A DNA stretch of 64,000 nucleotides from Phytohabitans maris (GTDB lineage: Bacteria; Actinomycetota; Actinomycetes; Mycobacteriales; Micromonosporaceae): contig NZ_JAVHUY010000013.1 of the NCBI RefSeq assembly GCF_031085175.1, forward strand, positions 124,001 to 188,000. The letters are read 5' to 3'. The notes under the pieces were generated by a model that was given only the letters and a program-made list of their open reading frames with translations, searched no databases and had not been told where the DNA came from. Each line of letters opens with the position of its first letter. Position 1 is the first letter of the stretch. Below, piece after piece: positions 20,052 through 59,561 of this stretch. Position numbers and translations under genes: made by a program.

Positions 20052-20216
20052 GGCCCGCGACCTCGCGCGAGCGCCCCCCCGGGCGGCAAGGGCTCAATTC
20101 CAATGCGGACCCGGGCCGTGAACGGGCTCTTACCTCTGCACGGACGGTTACCACGTCCATGCCGTTCGCCGTCCCGCACAGGCGGACGATCATGGACAGC
20201 GTCGGGCGGTTATCAG

Positions 20217-20262
20217 ATCGTGGTACCGAGGTGCCCCTGGAGGGGCACTGGGATACCACGAT
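20217..20262. repeat. 46-nt hairpin repeat P, copy 1
   Basis: Outer arms ATCGTGGTA and TACCACGAT (9 bp) enclose an inner stem GTGCCCC / GGGGCAC around a TGGA loop. A second copy of identical length lies at 59134-59179 with the same outer arms but a shifted inner stem (GGTGCCC/GGGCACC), so the base pairing is kept while bases change. The flank GGGCGGTT before this copy recurs, reversed, after the other. Confidence 0.85.
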
Positions 20263-20590
20263 CACCGGTTGGGGTCGGGTTTGGGGCGCGCCCGTAGGGG
20301 TGGCGGTGATCGTTCGTCCCTTTTCGGGGTGACGCGCTGGGGAAGACGCGGGTGCTGGGAAGGCGGGGGTTGCGGTGCGTCCGTGGCGAAAACCGCCCCG
20401 CCAGGGGCAGCGATTCGCCACGGACGGTTTGGCGATCCGGTCAAACCGTTCGTCGGCCCGGCCGGTAGGGCGGCTCCGGTCGTTGCCGCGTGGATCGTGG
20501 GCCGGGCGGGCAAGTTGGGGTAGAAGCCCAGCCCGCGGCCCTACCCGCCGCGGGCCGCGGTCTCAACCCGGGCCCTGCGGGGAGCCGGGT

Positions 20591-20757
20591 GGGCTTGTGT
20601 CGCGGGGCCGGCAGCGGAGGCCGGGGAACCCGGCGAGCGCCAGCGAGCCGCCGGCCGCAGCGGTGCCCGCGGGAAAGCACCCAAGAAAACGCTCCGCTGC
20701 GTTCCACGTCTCCCCAGGGGACCCCGCGCGTGCGGTCCGCAGCTGAGGCAGACCGGG
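20591..20757 (-). repeat. dispersed intergenic element A, copy 1 (minus orientation)
   Basis: Read on the minus strand, this 167-bp stretch follows the copies at 46783-46950 and 49624-49793 almost base for base (shared cores such as GCAGCGGAGCGTTTTCTTGG and TTTCCCGCGGGCACCGCTGC), with about one difference in ten by eye. It lies in a gene-free spacer. Confidence 0.85.
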
Positions 20758-20878
20758 GCGACGGGGGATCGTGGTTTGTAGCTGCTGCCAGCGCCCTCCG
20801 GCGCGGGTCGCTACGAGGGTGGGGCCGGGCCGGCCGGTCGCGGGAGACGCGGGGGAGCTGATAGCGGGGCGCGGGGCG

Positions 20879-21622
20879 CTACCAGGGTGGGGCCGGGCCG
20901 GAGGTGGAGTAGAGGGGGTGGCCGCGGAGCACCAGGCCGGAGCCGGGGTCGGCGGCCAGCTGCCGCACGCGGTCGAGCTCGGCCGGTCCCAGGCCGGCCG
21001 CCAGGAGCCGGCCGCGGTGGCGGACGGTGTCGACGGCGAGCAGCAGCGCGCCCGGGTCGCCGGCGGCCCAGACCGGTACGTGGATCTCGGTGTCCACTGT
21101 GGTCAGCCCGGCGGCGCGGGCGGCGGCGTGGGCGCGGGTCGCCCAGGTCGGGTCGACGCCGAGGCCGGGCAGGATCTCCTTGGCGAGCAGGCGCAGGCAG
21201 CGCTCGACCAGGGTGGCGTCGCGCGGGCTCGGGGCGCACAGCACCGCGTCGTCGGGCCACAGGTGCCAGTCTTCGACCACCAGCGTGCCGCCCGGTCCCA
21301 GCGCGGCCACCAGCCGGCGCAGCAACGCCTCGGGGTGCCGCACGCACATCAGCAGCAGGCGCGCGCGGATCAGCCCGTACCGGCCGGGAGCGAGCACGGC
21401 GGGCGGAAGCGGGTCGCCGGACGCGGTGACCACCTCGCCGCCCGCGCCCACCCGGTCGCGCAGCCACACGGGTACGGCGCTGCCGGCCGGCCCCAGGTCG
21501 AGGCAGCGCGTGCCGGTCAGGTGGGGCAGCCCGGCCAGCCGCCCGATGCTGATCGAGTCGAGCGCGGCCGCCAGGTACACCTCCCGGCGCACGTCCAGGT
21601 CCGCGGCGCTGACCGTCCTCAT
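20879..21622 (-). CDS. SAM-dependent methyltransferase-like protein
   Basis: 247 residues; the ATG at 21622 overlaps the stop of the upstream binding-protein gene (ATGA). A class I methyltransferase layout is suggested by LDLGPAGSAVPVWLRDRVG (motif I position, though GxGxG is degenerate), GRYGLIRARLLLMCVRHPEAL and LGPGGTLVVEDWHLWP (post-motif region). The end YSTSGPAPPW resembles the TSPP/AxP tail of UbiE/menaquinone-type homologues. The substrate is unknown. Coupling with an NMT1/THI5-like lipoprotein suggests a shared substrate pathway, but that is only context. Confidence 0.7.
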   Translation of the reverse strand: MRTVSAADLDVRREVYLAAALDSISIGRLAGLPHLTGTRCLDLGPAGSAVPVWLRDRVGAGGEVVTASGDPLPPAVLAPGRYGLIRARLLLMCVRHPEALLRRLVAALGPGGTLVVEDWHLWPDDAVLCAPSPRDATLVERCLRLLAKEILPGLGVDPTWATRAHAAARAAGLTTVDTEIHVPVWAAGDPGALLLAVDTVRHRGRLLAAGLGPAELDRVRQLAADPGSGLVLRGHPLYSTSGPAPPW

Positions 21623-45662: not shown

Positions 45663-46133
45663 ATGGCTCCCGTGATGCGCAGAACATCGTCTACCGCTGT
45701 CGTCGTTGTTGTGTCGGCTGCCCTCACGTCGTGTTCGGCGGGTTCTTCGGATGCGTCCGGGTCCGATGGCACGGCGGCTTCCGCGCAGGTGGCCACGGCG
45801 TCGCCTTCACCGGCTGGGCCGTGTGCTGACGGGTCGTGCCAGATCGAGGTCGCGGTGGGCGATGTGGTGACCGTGCCGGAGAGGTTTGGCCTCGGGCCGA
45901 TCGAGGTTACGGCGATCACCGCCACCGCGGTCGAGATGGTCGCTCCGGTGACCGGGTCGGGTTACAGCATTTCGGGGTGTTCCGGTGGCGGCGGTGTGTC
46001 GTCGCAGGGGGGTGGCGGTGTCCGGATGAGCTGCGAGGTGGGCACCGTCGCGACCGTCAACGACGTTATGAGCCTGGAGGTCGTCGAGATCGGCGACACC
46101 GTCGCCGTCCTACGTATCGAACCGGCCGGGTGA
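45663..46133 (+). CDS. small secreted lipoprotein
   Basis: 156 residues from the ATG at 45663; another ATG at 45675. The signal sequence SSTAVVVVVSAALTSC ends in a lipobox Cys, then a Ser/Ala linker. The mature domain (CQIEVAVGDVVTVPERFGLG, VTAITATAVEMVAPV, GGVRMSCEVGTVATV) looks like a small beta protein with three or four Cys. No family recognised. A typical surface protein of unknown role. Confidence 0.65.
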   Translation: MAPVMRRTSSTAVVVVVSAALTSCSAGSSDASGSDGTAASAQVATASPSPAGPCADGSCQIEVAVGDVVTVPERFGLGPIEVTAITATAVEMVAPVTGSGYSISGCSGGGGVSSQGGGGVRMSCEVGTVATVNDVMSLEVVEIGDTVAVLRIEPAG

Positions 46134-46252
46134 CATGACCACGTGCGCGGCTGTCGAACGCCGGCGTCGCCGCCCTGGAGAGTTGACTGCGGCCGAAGCG
46201 CGGCTGGTTATCGACGCGTTCGAGCTGGGAGGAGCATGAGAAAGTTGGGCCC

Positions 46253-46648
46253 ATGGCTTCGAGAGTGCGGTGGGTCGACTTCGACTGTGCCGATCCGTTC
46301 ACGGTGGCGAGCTTTTGGGCGGAGGCCCTCGGATTGCGTCACGACCCGGACAACAAGCCGGGGGAGGAGGAGTGCGTACTGCTCTCCGGGGCGGACGTGA
46401 TCGAAGGCGGCATGCTGTTTCAACGCGTTCCGGAAGGAAAGGCCGCGAAAAACAGGGTGCACCTGGATCTGCAGCCGACTGACCGTACGCGTGACGAGGA
46501 GGTCGAGCGGCTTCTTGGCTTGGGCGCTGCGCTGATTGCCGACCATCGCAACTCGGACGGTACGGGGTGGGCGGTGCTGGCCGACCCGGAGGGAAACGAG
46601 TTCTGCGTCGAACGCAGCGCGAAGGAACGTGCCGCCATGGGCGGCTGA
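46253..46648 (+). CDS. VOC-family protein
   Basis: 131 residues. RVRWVDFDCADPFTVASFWA, NRVHLDLQPTDRTRDEEVER and LADPEGNEFCVE are the two halves of the glyoxalase_6-like VOC fold common in actinobacteria. It lacks a complete standard metal triad in this reading (Asp, His, Glu partly). Function unknown. It follows the lipoprotein gene by 119 nt. Confidence 0.85.
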   Translation: MASRVRWVDFDCADPFTVASFWAEALGLRHDPDNKPGEEECVLLSGADVIEGGMLFQRVPEGKAAKNRVHLDLQPTDRTRDEEVERLLGLGAALIADHRNSDGTGWAVLADPEGNEFCVERSAKERAAMGG

Positions 46649-46782
46649 AACAGCCGGGTGGGGGGCCGATCGTCCCGTCGCATCCGTCAACGCGACGACG
46701 TCGGCCTCGGCGAAGCGGCGCAGGAGGTCCCCGAGCGTGGTCGGGTCCGGCGGGAGCCTGGCCCCGAGCCCGTTCATCAATT

Positions 46783-47072
46783 GCCCCGGTCCGCCTCAGC
46801 TGCTGACCGTTTGCGCGGGGTCCCCGGGGAAACGTGGAGCGCAGCGGAGCGTTTTCTTGGGGTGCTTTCCCGCGGGCACCGCTGCGGCCGGCGGCGAGCT
46901 GGCGCTCGCCGAGATCCCCGGCCTCCGCTGCCGGCTCCGCGACACAAGCCCTCCCGGGCGTGTGCGTGGGAGCTGCGGATTGCCCGCACAGACAGGGCTC
47001 CCGGCAAGGGCTGGGGTGAGATCGTGCACCCGAAGAGGACGCTCCACGTTTCCCCAGGCCCCGCACAACGGT
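46783..47072. repeat. dispersed intergenic element A, copy 2, with terminal inverted repeats
   Basis: 46783-46950 is the common A sequence; about 140 nt from ACCGTTTGCGCGGGG onward are identical to 49624-49793. At 47039-47072 the left-end sequence returns inverted: GCTCCACGTTTCCCC and CCCCGC-ACAACGGTC mirror GACCGTTTGCGCGGGG and GGGGAAACGTGGAGC. Thus a non-coding element of about 290 bp with roughly 30-bp terminal inverted repeats, MITE-like. Confidence 0.8.
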
Positions 47073-47110
47073 CCGGACCACCGCGGGCGTCGCGGTAGCC
47101 CAAAACTTCT
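47071..47110. repeat. 40-bp module B, copy 2
   Basis: GTCCGGACCACCGCGG and GTCGCGGTAGCCCA recur at 49946-49985 (same strand) and 59061-59098 (opposite strand). In this and the next copy it lies directly after element A. Confidence 0.85.
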
Positions 47111-47179
47111 TTCGGCGTCGGATCGCTCGAGACGGCCAGCGGCCATCGCCCAGGTCTGCGCAGACCCGCGCGGGGTTTC

Positions 47180-48658
47180 CTAGACCTGGCGGGCGGCGAG
47201 CGCGTGAGCGATGTCGACGGTGTCGTGGTAGAGGCGGCGGTAGAGGGCGTAACCCTCGTCGTAGACGGCGGCGTGGGCCGGGTCGGGCTCGACCAGTGTG
47301 ACCACGGGGTTCCACGCGTCGATGTCCACGTCGGCGCCGGCGGTGAGTGCGGCCAGGTATGCGGCGCCCAGGCAGGCGCCGATCGGCGTGGCGCACAGCG
47401 ACTGCGGCCGCTGGAGGACGTCGGAGACGATCCGCGTCCAGAGGCCGCCGGTGGTGCCGCCGCCGACCGCGACGAGCCGCCGCGGCTCGGCGCCCGCCTC
47501 GGCGAAGGATTCGAGGTTGTGCCGTACGCCGTACGCGGTGGCCTCCAGCGCGGCCCGGTAGACGTCGCCGCGGCCGTGCCGCAGGGTGAGGCCGGCCAGG
47601 ATGCCACGCGCGTCGGGGTCGAAGAGCGGGCTGCGCTCGCCGGCCAGGTAGGGCAGCATGAGCAGCCCGTTGGCGCCCGGCGGTGACTGGCCGGCCTCCG
47701 CGGCGAGACCGGCGAAGTCGGGCTGGCCGGCCAGCCGCCGCACCCAGTCGGCGGTCGCGCCGGAGGTGGCCATGCCGGCCGCCAGGCTGAACGTCCCGGG
47801 AAACGTGCCGACCGTGCCCCACAGCGGCGGGCTGACCCGGCGGGCGTCAAGCGCGGCGATGATGAACATCGTGGTGCCGTACATCAGCATCACGTCGCCA
47901 GGTCGGCGCACGCCGACGCTGAGCGCCTCGGTCCAGGCGTCGATCGTGCCGGTGGTGACCGGCGTACCGGCCGGGATGCCGGTCTCGGCCGCCGCCGTGG
48001 CGGTCACGAGGCCCGCGGTCTCGGCTGGCCAGGCGAGGCGGGGCAGTTCGATGTGCTCGGCGATCGCGGCGGCCCAGCCGTCCGCCCAGTCCAGCTTGCG
48101 GCTGTCGTAGAGGGGTATGGCCTGGCTGGCCGAGTGGTGGTCCAGCACGTACTCGCCGGTGAGTCGCCGCACCAGGTAGGAGTTGGCCATGTGGATCCGG
48201 CGGGTACGGCGCCAGACCTCGGGCTCGTGGCGGCGCAGCCAGCGCAGCTTGGGGCCGATCGCCTGGGAGGTCAGCGGGGCGCCGGCCCGCTCGGCGATGG
48301 CGTCGGCGCCGAGCTCGGCGTTGAGTTCGTCGATCTCCTGTCCGGCGCGGGTGTCGATGCCGTAGAGGATGGCCGGGCGGAGCGGGCGGTCGCGCTCGTC
48401 GGTCGGCTGCAGGACCGGCCCGATCCCGCTGACGCCGACGGCGGTGACCGGCTCGGCGAGGGGCGCGGTGAGCGATCTGGCGATCGCGACGAAATCGCCC
48501 CACCAGATCTGGTCGGCGTCGTGCTCGGCCCAGCCGGGGCGGGGCAGGTCGAACTCGTGCGCCCGGCTCGCGCTGGCGACGATCTCTCCGTCGGGGCGCA
48601 CGAGGACACCCTTCGTGCTCGACGTGCCGACGTCGATGCCCAGGAAGAGTGCGCTCAT
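47180..48658 (-). CDS. FGGY-family carbohydrate kinase (xylulokinase-like)
   Basis: 492 residues from the ATG at 48658 (a GTG 15 nt earlier is possible). N-terminal LFLGIDVGTSSTKGVLV phosphate-binding loop; catalytic Asp region TTGTIDAWTEALSVG; C-terminal LVAVGGGTTGGLWTRIVSDV signature. It phosphorylates a ketose or polyol with ATP. Divergent from the DapA-like gene with a 102-nt spacer that holds a 16-nt palindrome matching the site before lacI and the isomerase gene. Probably the kinase step of the locus. Confidence 0.92.
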   Translation of the reverse strand: MSALFLGIDVGTSSTKGVLVRPDGEIVASASRAHEFDLPRPGWAEHDADQIWWGDFVAIARSLTAPLAEPVTAVGVSGIGPVLQPTDERDRPLRPAILYGIDTRAGQEIDELNAELGADAIAERAGAPLTSQAIGPKLRWLRRHEPEVWRRTRRIHMANSYLVRRLTGEYVLDHHSASQAIPLYDSRKLDWADGWAAAIAEHIELPRLAWPAETAGLVTATAAAETGIPAGTPVTTGTIDAWTEALSVGVRRPGDVMLMYGTTMFIIAALDARRVSPPLWGTVGTFPGTFSLAAGMATSGATADWVRRLAGQPDFAGLAAEAGQSPPGANGLLMLPYLAGERSPLFDPDARGILAGLTLRHGRGDVYRAALEATAYGVRHNLESFAEAGAEPRRLVAVGGGTTGGLWTRIVSDVLQRPQSLCATPIGACLGAAYLAALTAGADVDIDAWNPVVTLVEPDPAHAAVYDEGYALYRRLYHDTVDIAHALAARQV

Positions 48659-48721
48659 CGTGCCTCCGCTCACGCGCCGTGGCCAGGCTTGACGTTGCCC
48701 GCCGCTCTCGGTCTACGATCA

Positions 48722-48737
48722 CAGAAACCGATTTCAG
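48722..48737. promoter_or_regulatory. LacI-type operator between kinase and aldolase genes
   Basis: CAGAAACCGATTTCAG differs from the perfect palindrome at 51061-51076 (CTGAAATCGATTTCAG) at two positions. It sits in the shared promoter region of two divergent genes of the same locus. Confidence 0.75.
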
Positions 48738-48760
48738 TAGCAAGACCGCGGAGGCAACGA

Positions 48761-49570
48761 ATGATCGACGGCGTGGTGGTCGCCGCCCTGACCCCGTTCG
48801 ACGAGCAGGGCGCGCTCGACGCCCGCCGCATCCCGCCCTACGTCGACTACCTGCTCGACGCGAGCGTCGGCGGCCTCATGGTCGGCGGCACGACGGGCGA
48901 GTTCGTGACGATGACCAGCGACGAGCGGATCGAGGCGGTCGGCGCCTTCGCCCGCGCGGTCGCCGGCCGAGTGCCGGTGATCGCCCACGTCGGCCACGCG
49001 GCACCGGCGGAGGCGTGCCGCCTGGCGGCCCGTGCGGCCGAGGCCGGCGCGGACGCGCTCACCGCGATCACGCCCTACTTCCATCCGGTCCAGCCGGCCG
49101 CGGTGGAGGCGTACTTCCGGGACGTGGCCGCCGCCGTGCCGACCCTGCCGTTCCACGTCTACAACTACCCGGAAGCGTCCGGCACCCGGATCGCGCCGGC
49201 GACCTTCCGCGGGCTGCTCGACGTGCCCAACCTGGCCGGCGTGAAGCTTAGCGTCGCCACGTTCGCCGAGGTGGAGCCCTATCTCGACCTGCTCGGCAAG
49301 CTCACCGTGATGAGCGGCAACGACGCGCTGATCGTCCCGTTCGCCGAGGCCGGCGGCACGGCGGTCGTCTCCGGCAACGCCTCGGTCCGCCCGGCGCTGC
49401 TGGTCGACCTCTTCGCGGCTGCCCAGGGCGGCCACACGGCCGCCGTCGAGCGCCTGGTGGCCGAGCTCGACCAGCTGCGCGAGCTGACCGCGGCCGCCCC
49501 CGACCGCCTGAAGGCCGCACTCCGTGGCAGCGGCGTGGACATCGGCGAGGCCCGCATAAGGACTGTCTAG
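48761..49570 (+). CDS. dihydrodipicolinate synthase/N-acetylneuraminate lyase family protein
   Basis: 269 residues. VVVAALTPFDEQGALD, MVGGTTGEFVTMTSDER, YNYPEASGTRIAP (catalytic Tyr) and LAGVKLSVATF (Schiff-base Lys) are intact. With an FGGY kinase, isomerase-like protein and sugar importer around, an aldolase on a keto-deoxy sugar acid is more likely than lysine synthesis. The gene ends just before element A copy 3. Confidence 0.92.
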   Translation: MIDGVVVAALTPFDEQGALDARRIPPYVDYLLDASVGGLMVGGTTGEFVTMTSDERIEAVGAFARAVAGRVPVIAHVGHAAPAEACRLAARAAEAGADALTAITPYFHPVQPAAVEAYFRDVAAAVPTLPFHVYNYPEASGTRIAPATFRGLLDVPNLAGVKLSVATFAEVEPYLDLLGKLTVMSGNDALIVPFAEAGGTAVVSGNASVRPALLVDLFAAAQGGHTAAVERLVAELDQLRELTAAAPDRLKAALRGSGVDIGEARIRTV

Positions 49571-49623
49571 GAGAGCTTCCGGATCAGGGTCGGGCGTGTC
49601 TCAACGTCTCTTTCAGACATGAT

Positions 49624-49793
49624 TTGCCCCGGTCCGCGCCAGCTGCGGACCGTTTGCGCGGGGTCCCCGGGGAAACGTGGAGCGCAGCGGAGCGTTTTCT
49701 TGGGGTGCTTTCCCGCGGGCACCGCTGCGGCCGGCGGCGAGCTGGCGCTCGCCGAGATCCCCGGCCTCCGCTGCCGGCTCCGCGGGGCAAGCC
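49624..49793 (+). repeat. dispersed intergenic element A, copy 3
   Basis: Begins with GCCCCGGTCCGCGCCAGCTG, where GGTCCGC and GCGGACC form a hairpin, then runs identical to copy 2 for about 140 nt to CCGGCTCCGCG. After it the sequence diverges until module B at 49946. Confidence 0.9.
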
Positions 49794-49945
49794 CACCCCG
49801 GCGCTCGCCGGCTGCCGGGGTGTGCACGCACAGACGGGGCAGCTCGAGAGCTTCCCGCGCGCACACATCCGCCCCGGCGACGGCGCTGTGGAGAGGGGGT
49901 CACGGCCGCCGGCTCCCCGCCAGGGGCCGGGGGAGATCGTGGGCT

Positions 49946-49985
49946 TCCGGACCACCGCGGACGTCGCGGTAGCCCAGATTCTCCT
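49946..49985 (+). repeat. 40-bp module B, copy 3
   Basis: CCGGACCACCGCGG-A-CGTCGCGGTAGCCCA matches 47073-47102 apart from one base and the opposite-strand copy at 59061-59098. It ends 11 nt before the lacI stop. Confidence 0.85.
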
Positions 49986-49996
49986 GGACGAGGGCG

Positions 49997-50992
49997 TCAG
50001 GACGGGCGGCGGGAGCTGTCACGGATCTCGAGGCGGGTGGGGAGCACTACGGTCTGAGGGTCGAGGTCGGGGTTTCCGCGGCGCTTGAGCACGAGCTCGG
50101 CAGCGGAGCGCCCGATGTCGTAGGCGGGCTGGTGCACGCTGCTCAGCGACGGCCGCACCAGGTGTGACCAGAAGGCGTCGCCGAAGGCCGCCACGCCGAT
50201 CGCCGGCGGGCGCAGCTCCCGGTCGTACATCGCCTCGAGCGCGCCCGCCGCCATCAGGTTGTTGGTCACCATCACCGCGTCCGGCGGGTTTGCCGAGTCC
50301 AGTAGCTCGGCCATCGCCCGGTAGCCGCCGCGGACGCGGAAGTCCGCGTACTTCACGGCGGGGCGCCGGCGCGGCGGGTCGGACTCGCGGTGGGCGCGCA
50401 GGAAGCCGCGCAGCCGCTGCACCGCCGCCCACGACTCGCGCGGGCCGGTGATGCAGGCGATCCGGCGGTAGCCTTCGTCGATCAGGTGGCTGGTGGCCGC
50501 GTACGCCCCGCGCTCGTCGTCCGAGGCGACGGTGTCGACCTGCGCGGACTCGGGTGAGTGGTCGATGGCCACGACTGGGATGCCCTTGCCGATCAGCTGG
50601 GTGACATCGGTTTCGGTCATCGAGGCGGGCGAGATGATCACACCGGCCATGTGCTCCGCCAGGGCCACGTCGAGGTACGCCGCCTCCTTCTCCGGGTCGT
50701 CGTCGGCGTTGCACAGCACGACCGACAGCGCCGCCGTGCGGGCCACGTCCTCGACGCCCCGGGCGAGCGCGGTGAAGAACGGGTTTTCGATGTCGGCGAT
50801 GATCAACCCGAGCACGTCGCTGCTCTGCCGGCGCAGGCCACGGGCCACCCGGTTAGGCTTGAACCCCAGCTCAGCGCAGGCGGCCCGGACGCGAGCCTCG
50901 CGGTCGGGGGTGACCCGCGCGCCGTTGAGCACGCGGGACACGGTCGCCGGCGACACACCGGCCGCCTTCGCGACGTCGTAGATGTTGGCCAC
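49997..50992 (-). CDS. LacI family transcriptional regulator of the carbohydrate locus
   Basis: 331 residues, GTG start at 50992. N-terminal HTH NIYDVAKAAGVSPATVSRVL, hinge, then periplasmic-binding-type domain (VLGLIIADIENPFFTALARG, AYAATSHLIDEGYRRIACIT, AIGVAAFGDAFWSHLVRPSL). Divergent from the isomerase-like gene; the palindrome at 51061-51076 lies between them and is nearly repeated before the kinase/aldolase pair, so it likely represses all four transcripts. Confidence 0.93.
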   Translation of the reverse strand: MANIYDVAKAAGVSPATVSRVLNGARVTPDREARVRAACAELGFKPNRVARGLRRQSSDVLGLIIADIENPFFTALARGVEDVARTAALSVVLCNADDDPEKEAAYLDVALAEHMAGVIISPASMTETDVTQLIGKGIPVVAIDHSPESAQVDTVASDDERGAYAATSHLIDEGYRRIACITGPRESWAAVQRLRGFLRAHRESDPPRRRPAVKYADFRVRGGYRAMAELLDSANPPDAVMVTNNLMAAGALEAMYDRELRPPAIGVAAFGDAFWSHLVRPSLSSVHQPAYDIGRSAAELVLKRRGNPDLDPQTVVLPTRLEIRDSSRRPS

Positions 50993-59133: not shown

Positions 59134-59179
59134 ATCGTGGTATTTCGGTGCCCCTCCGAGGGCACCTGGATACCACGAT
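59134..59179. repeat. 46-nt hairpin repeat P, copy 2
   Basis: Outer arms ATCGTGGTA and TACCACGAT identical to copy 1 at 20217-20262; inner stem GGTGCCC/GGGCACC instead of GTGCCCC/GGGGCAC. The trailing AACCGCCCG is the complement of the flank before copy 1. Confidence 0.85.
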
Positions 59180-59239
59180 CTCAACAACCGCCCGGTGCCC
59201 GCCGGCCAAGCCGACCGCGCCCCGTTCGATCGACAACTC

Positions 59240-59301
59240 CCGCGGGAAAGCTCCCCGGGGACCCCGCGCAAACGGTCCCCAGCTGGCGCGGACCGGGGCA
59301 G
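59240..59301 (-). repeat. element A, copy 4 (shortened, minus orientation)
   Basis: The complement begins GCCCCGGTCCGCGCCAGCTG and runs to GGGGTCCCCGGGGA, then jumps to GCTTTCCCGCGGG, so about 40 internal bases of element A are deleted and the right half is missing. Confidence 0.75.
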
Positions 59302-59561
59302 ATCCCGTCTGAAGAAACGCCGGGACGCGCCGCACCCGCCCTCCCCAGAGCCCACCACCCCACTCCGAAAGCCCTCCGGCGGCGCCAGAGTGGCTTCGGG
59401 TCCGGCGCGCTGTGGGTTTGGCAGACTGCTTCGCGTGCCGCAGCCAGTGTTCCGCAGCCGACGTCAGCGTTGGGTGACGCCAATGAGGTCACCAAGCCAC
59501 CCGTTGGCCGCAGCCACGGCGGACGCTCCGTCTATGTGAGGACGAGGATTCCTCTTAGGGT

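Follow-up and report, generated by a model that had tools for sequence, protein, structure and literature searches.

A candidate MIRU-like start-codon cassette nested in dispersed gene-end repeats of Phytohabitans

Known small repeats and the composite element

MIRUs occur between the genes of operons and serve typing worldwide; we know of no enzyme for them, and how they move is, to our knowledge, an open question. Cyanobacterial small dispersed repeats (SDR) are very small and insert inside other sequences, and HEARO/OMEGA RNA elements are structured and have an ATGA target. According to the review PMC12548453, a MIRU is a repeat at a start codon whose inner ORF is coupled to the gene with a −4 nt spacing. 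MIRUs of 53 and 77 bp at one locus appear in PMC4213456, sizes that compare with the 53 bp of the unit described here.

In this study, we analysed a 64,000-nucleotide stretch of Phytohabitans maris DNA (the window) in which an initial annotation had described a dispersed intergenic repeat, element A. Element A is a composite, a ~120-bp host repeat (host A) that carries a nested 53-bp unit (U). U can be termed MIRU-like by its placement and coupling, since it fits the behaviour described for MIRUs, the comparison being one of descriptions and not of sequences: it appears to insert at a start codon while the gene keeps one (loci L111 and L123), and its inner ORF runs in the direction of the gene and is apparently coupled to the next one. 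It differs from MIRUs in occurring in another bacterial family, in showing fusions besides couplings, in having a stem whose conservation is seen on the strand that does not carry the mini-ORF, and in that, of the copies fetched from the source genome, most are embedded in a different repeat at gene ends. This nested two-habitat arrangement is new relative to known MIRUs. With SDR, again compared by description only, U shares the character of a very small repeat inserted within other sequences, and it departs from them in its start-codon copies and covarying stem. With HEARO/OMEGA elements it has in common a structured nature and the ATGA target, but U is only 53 bp, no Y1 match was found in the six Phytohabitans genomes and the window has no Rfam match to them at E ≤ 5. 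The earlier statement that no named family fits is borne out as far as Rfam goes (the window's sole hits at E ≤ 5 were a tRNA and, weakly, mir-278) but not for the inner unit, which behaves like the mycobacterial MIRUs. In the literature, a text search did not find the motif letters of the element, the titles returned for Phytohabitans and intergenic repeats concern other subjects, and there was no match for REP in Micromonosporaceae. We consider it probable that the whole is a nested composite in which U is a MIRU-like mobile start-codon cassette and the hosts are repeats that tend to lie in sense behind stop codons.

BLAST recovered all four copies claimed for the window, three full and one shortened. 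Copy 1 (49620-49795, plus strand) consists of host A at 49620-49657 and 49711-49795 and of U at 49658-49710 (plus strand, with the mini-ORF on the minus strand), the boundaries of U being set by host copies without it. U has a 13-bp stem and a 15-nt loop and reads, on the plus strand, GCGGGG.CCCCGGGGAAACG-TGGAGCGCAGCGGAG-CGTTTTCTTGGGGTGCNT. Copy 2 (46777-46952, plus strand), also host A with U, is 96% identical to copy 1 (E 3e-78) and follows the stop codon at 46646-46648 at a distance of ~128 nt. The third copy of host A with U (20590-20765, minus strand; 89% identity to copy 1, E 8e-60) stands in sense orientation behind a minus-strand ORF ending at 20879. The shortened copy (~59239-59304, minus strand; BLAST-aligned part 59252-59304, 96%, E 1e-19) retains the left half of host A, a U that lacks its hairpin and the first ~9 bp of the right half. 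Where about 140 identical bases had been claimed for two copies, the longest identical run is 137 bp (49648-49784 against 46805-46941). The window also holds 5′ halves of a second host, host B, both on the minus strand and in sense: one at ~47026-47101, with an internally deleted U, behind an ORF ending at 47180, and one at 49949-49973 behind an ORF ending at 49997. Hosts at times face each other in this way between convergent genes, the host A copies starting at 46777 and 49620 being opposed by the host B halves ending at 47101 and 49973, respectively.

A genome-wide BLAST search, with the best 40 of 678 first-look candidates scored (and the same number per genome in BLAST-type counts generally), placed the element at no fewer than 43 places in the 9.87-Mb source genome (G000), three of them short pieces of 31–60 bp. 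Across 41 aligned copies, homology starts near GATTTGCCCC and stops near CAAGCCCA, and the ~110-bp flanks, among the rows listed, are mostly unrelated, which removes segmental duplication as a general cause and leaves it to account for at most one copy pair. There are two kinds of exception: some copies have repeats from other families next to them in common, and L027 and L028, both host A copies that contain U, have near-identical flanks, so that at least one pair arose by a larger duplication. The description of the repeat as dispersed, intergenic, recent and devoid of a transposase was right. An exact 30-mer core was found among GTDB contigs only in Phytohabitans flavus NBRC 107702 and P. 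suffuscus NBRC 105367, with four stretches each, and phage and plasmid collections gave no match. Within the region 46000-50700, a single gene near the copies has an orthologue in a sister species (G004), and at the right end the matches are to more distant genes.

The nesting is seen directly in sister species, in which positions 1-38 of the query are joined to 92-176 with the middle absent, and the middle occurs elsewhere. Pattern counts, which are complete but score a core of 25–32 letters with ≤3 mismatches and not whole elements, gave for the U-free host A core (GACCGTTTGC^TCCCGCGGGCACCGC) 26, 95, 66, 29, 6 and 107 matches in the Phytohabitans genomes G000, G001, G002, G003, G004 and G005 (329 in total), and for the U-free host B core (GACCGTTGC^TCCCGCGGCCTCACCCTCCGCGG) 96, 412, 299, 43, 4 and 334 (1,188 in total); reversed controls for both joined cores gave none. 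The two hosts share a core (GACCGTTTGC/TCCCGCGG), host B being the more numerous. U core matches in the same six genomes numbered 120, 6, 57, 2, 2 and 12, the 120 of the source genome coming from a 31-mer at ≤3 mismatches whose reversed control gave 0. Among 77 U copies fetched from the source genome, a sample picked from hit lists that does not give genome proportions, host A contains 34 and host B 39, and the other four lack a host right half by pattern, three of these being standalone and the fourth (L040) a host A copy with a deletion. U itself suffers internal deletions, as at 59239-59304 and 47026-47101, and a few host A copies retain only a remnant of it. Locus L097 has two tandem host B cores. 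Three further loci (L073, L201 and L202) join host B right halves to another left half (CTTGATC...GTGAGTGGCATCGGGTCCGGACCG), so the host repeats are modular. The initial reading of a single element was thus incomplete: there are two nested repeats, and the inner one reads elsewhere as a short gene-coupled ORF.

U at start codons

Fourteen U copies outside hosts were read, from G000, G001, G003, G004, G005 and a genome of another genus (G045); further matches exist. By inspection, 11 of them lie on start codons, the opposite strand showing a start codon and then U as coding sequence. In seven, a mini-ORF like MKHPTKTLRFAPRFRGDPA* ends at the start of the next gene, six times with an ATGA/GTGA overlap, and in four another frame (MKAPQENAPLRSTFPRGPR...) is fused into the next gene. 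The remaining three are not clearly at start codons, L116 lying between two stop codons and L141 and L142 being unclear. The mini-ORF has ~19 codons, most often in the form MKHPTKTLRxAPRFRGDPA*. Because two frames are used with one conserved nucleotide sequence, it is suggested that DNA or RNA, and not the peptide, is what is conserved in U. The flanking genes look genuine by Pfam, with a match in 18 of 19 scanned proteins (none for L117); they include the NADH dehydrogenase chain 4L/chain 5 pair at L123 (Oxidored_q2 and Proton_antipo), OppB/OppC-type permease components at L131 and an alanine racemase at L124. A weaker relative of U lies between two SufBD genes at L162 in G007 (model hit E 1e-7).

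Filled and empty sites can be compared between sister species at two of these loci. At L111, a STAS-domain gene, all five sister species are uninterrupted (GGAGGT.GCGA-ATG-TC(C/G)-TTGAC, TCG in a single one), and the source genome has GGAGGTAGCGA-ATG-AAGCACCCC...CCCCGC-ATG-TCC-TTGAC, in which the 56 bp extra equal U plus ATG; we read this as a clean insertion of U at the start codon, after which the gene would keep a start codon. L123 is filled in G003 (GACGCATGAAGCACCCC...CCCCGCGTGATC), and four of five sister loci are empty (GACGC(A/G)TGAT); the anchor missed the junction in G004, which a rough alignment also places as empty. Insertion at the start codon with duplication of the codon would be the simplest reading of both loci, the two start codons at L123 being different (ATG and GTG). 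Direct support for movement of U comes from these two loci, for which parallel loss in the sister lineages would be a formal alternative.

On the probable reading given above, U would be a small non-autonomous cassette that moves by itself and, outside hosts, inserts at start codons. The start codon at the old place would then open the mini-ORF, and a second one at its end, usually in an ATGA/GTGA stop overlap, would serve the original gene, so that the gene would still be translated, with mini-ORF and gene presumably coupled in translation. In the source species and G002, U may also have multiplied inside hosts, at a single insertion point.

U in its hosts and the U hairpin

How U came to be in the hosts is a separate matter. 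In the copies read, host A and host B carry U at an identical position, GACCGTTTGC^TCCCGCGG, and with the same orientation. This site is not a start codon and the host copies have no clear target duplication; the host copies could thus have spread by recombination or with the hosts. That U entered hosts A and B once or a few times and then spread by gene conversion or with moving hosts is close to an even call, and we lean slightly against it. The shared point and orientation, the core common to both hosts and the lack of a clear duplication all agree with it, as does the host-only tree of host A (37 filled and 19 empty copies), where filled copies are more clustered than chance: 10 filled/empty changes were counted against a shuffled mean of 16.1, and 0 of 500 shuffles were as low. 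Filled and empty copies are nonetheless mixed on both trees, that of host B (46 filled, 45 empty) having 28 changes against a mean of 30.9 on shuffling, with 88 of the 500 shuffles as low, although the trees are short and so poorly resolved that starred branches force only two changes for A and one for B. These counts leave out 26 rows classed as "other" and 10 as "filled?", together with three filled A and four filled B rows that were untrimmable, short or identical. Repeated insertion, loss and exchange between hosts would each fit the trees.

The hairpins attributed to the element fared differently at the two levels. For the whole 176-bp element, RNAalifold on 38 source-genome copies found one doubly changed pair in 32 and a covariation term of +0.2, which gives no support for a whole-element RNA fold, and the lone sequence folds with no more than mild stability (z −2.29 for the plus strand, −1.03 for the minus strand). 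The inner unit, in contrast, shows compensatory changes. Over 23 diverse U copies, selected from host and non-host sites, 99.0% of 298 cells of the 13-bp stem are paired, and four pairs changed on both sides (C-G to G-U, G-U to C-G, A-U to G-C and C-G to U-A). None of 500 shuffles reached the observed value on four of five covariation measures; the fifth, further pair types, was not raised (374 of 500 as high). Pairing drops to 40–61% in slid versions of the stem. A covariance model of U found matches at E ≤ 0.01 in 33 of 121 genomes of the family, representing 12 of 44 genera. Hits below 1e-15 are confined to the six Phytohabitans genomes and G045, and several of the weaker ones belong to another start-codon repeat.

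This other repeat, of ~80 bp, was seen in other Micromonosporaceae genera (L166, L170, L171, L173, L175, L178, L180, L181 and L183). It reads roughly MSERSERIxxLxxxVPHxGTERSGxPA*, has ATGAGCG-like ends, overlaps the start of the next gene, is in tandem at L180 and L181 and carries a hairpin loop GGAGCGMAGCGGAG on the genes' own strand; it looks like another MIRU-like family. In genus g13, two genomes (loci L163 and L169) have a pair of distinct mini-ORF units with diverged U-like hairpins, in tandem at one ATGA junction before a gene starting MIRFLSPWW.

The stem of U is asymmetric between strands: in 42 distinct copies identified by pattern, 503 of 546 cells pair on the plus strand (124 as G-U) against 388 on the other, with 34 cells unpaired on either strand, a set that includes out-of-register copies. 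Since more stem cells pair on the plus strand, a single-stranded form of that strand appears to be favoured. Behind genes, the hosts tend to have this strand in sense, and it is antisense to the mini-ORF; coupling alone leaves this asymmetry, opposite in sense to the mini-ORF, unexplained. On an unlikely reading, U would be a two-habitat mobile hairpin for which the hosts act as a reservoir: transcribed behind genes, they would carry U in 3′ UTRs as RNA of the stem-conserved strand. Wobble pairs would be kept as G-U on that strand, the single-stranded RNA or its copy would be the substrate, and a non-Y1 enzyme would insert it at start codons on the other strand. If true, actinobacterial MIRU-like elements would move as single-strand hairpins and target start codons.

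Host repeats at gene ends and what the composite means

The hosts, which the favoured reading takes to be sense repeats that may act on the 3′ end of RNA, are biased toward gene ends in sense. For host B, 56 of 75 copies have the stop of a sense gene ≤160 nt upstream, and for host A this holds for 30 of 60. The other 19 and 30 copies, for which the simple caller used found no such stop, have an antisense gene start instead (nine B, ten A) or neither (10 B, 20 A). Genes were called by a simple GC3 rule at places chosen by the analyst in several species, after dropping copies with no recognisable 5′ half, with <250 nt of flank or that were near-duplicates; a rougher earlier count gave 34 of 46 for B and, with false pattern hits in coding DNA counted in, 20 of 57 for A.

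Such placement is also what one would expect if the hosts were not mobile at all and were conserved regulatory RNAs or terminators, held at 3′ ends by selection. The sense orientation behind stop codons, the covarying stem in U and, in G004, a simple hairpin that looks by eye like a terminator and stands at one orthologous gene end speak for this. High-GC actinobacterial terminators are frequently without a T run. We regard the non-mobile reading as improbable, however, since host B core counts vary 100-fold among species and the orthologous gene ends differ at the 20591 copy: that end is a few bp in G001 and G005, holds two facing empty host B copies in G002 and has ~830 bp of stacked repeats between convergent genes in G000 (window 20052-20877). 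Because of the differences at this gene end, host repeats appear to come and go between species.

Other dispersed repeats lie beside the hosts. A palindrome ATCGTGGTA..GTGCCCC..GGGGCAC..TACCACGAT at 20217-20262 and 59134-59179 is one more intergenic repeat, and at other places, too, it adjoins several copies of element A. A repeat around GCACGCACAGACGGGGCAGCTCCAGAGC (49828-49845 in the window and the right flanks of L014, L020, L023 and L026) immediately follows many copies of element A and is a further modular repeat. The palindrome CTAGAACGTTTA...TAAACGTTCTAG, AT-rich and dispersed in a GC-rich genome, occurs in the flanks of L013, L020 and L094 and is absent from the window at one mismatch.

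Hosts A and B resemble REP/REPIN/BIME sequences as hundreds of short palindromic intergenic copies with facing pairs at gene ends, and these same features would fit REP/REPIN repeats or IS200/IS605-derived palindromes that a Y1 transposase of the RAYT type mobilises. We hold this to be very unlikely: the Y1 transposase family PF01797 has no match at E ≤ 0.001 in any of the six Phytohabitans genomes (the control was positive in 5 of 14 named genomes), which tells against mobilisation of the REP/RAYT or IS200/IS605 kind. Compared with REP/REPIN/BIME sequences (PMC3116915), the hosts are also longer (~75–120 bp), with a directional 3′-end placement. Least tenable is the earlier reading of one indivisible mobile element of 176 bp, which agrees with the end-to-end alignment of most source-genome copies but is rejected by the hosts without U, whose host A core matches alone exceed all U matches in the other five species, and by the fact that the inner unit also occurs in another host as well as outside any host.

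The preferred reading, a nested composite with a mobile start-codon cassette, has consequences for annotation. Annotators are warned that N-termini like MKAPQENAPLRSTFPRG before unrelated proteins derive from the U repeat and that the apparent 180-bp element is composite. One genome has more than 100 near-identical copies of U, some sister species have few, and the covarying hairpin offers a biochemical handle. U would be an analogue of MIRUs in soil actinomycetes, one for which clean filled and empty start-codon sites can be compared between sister species.
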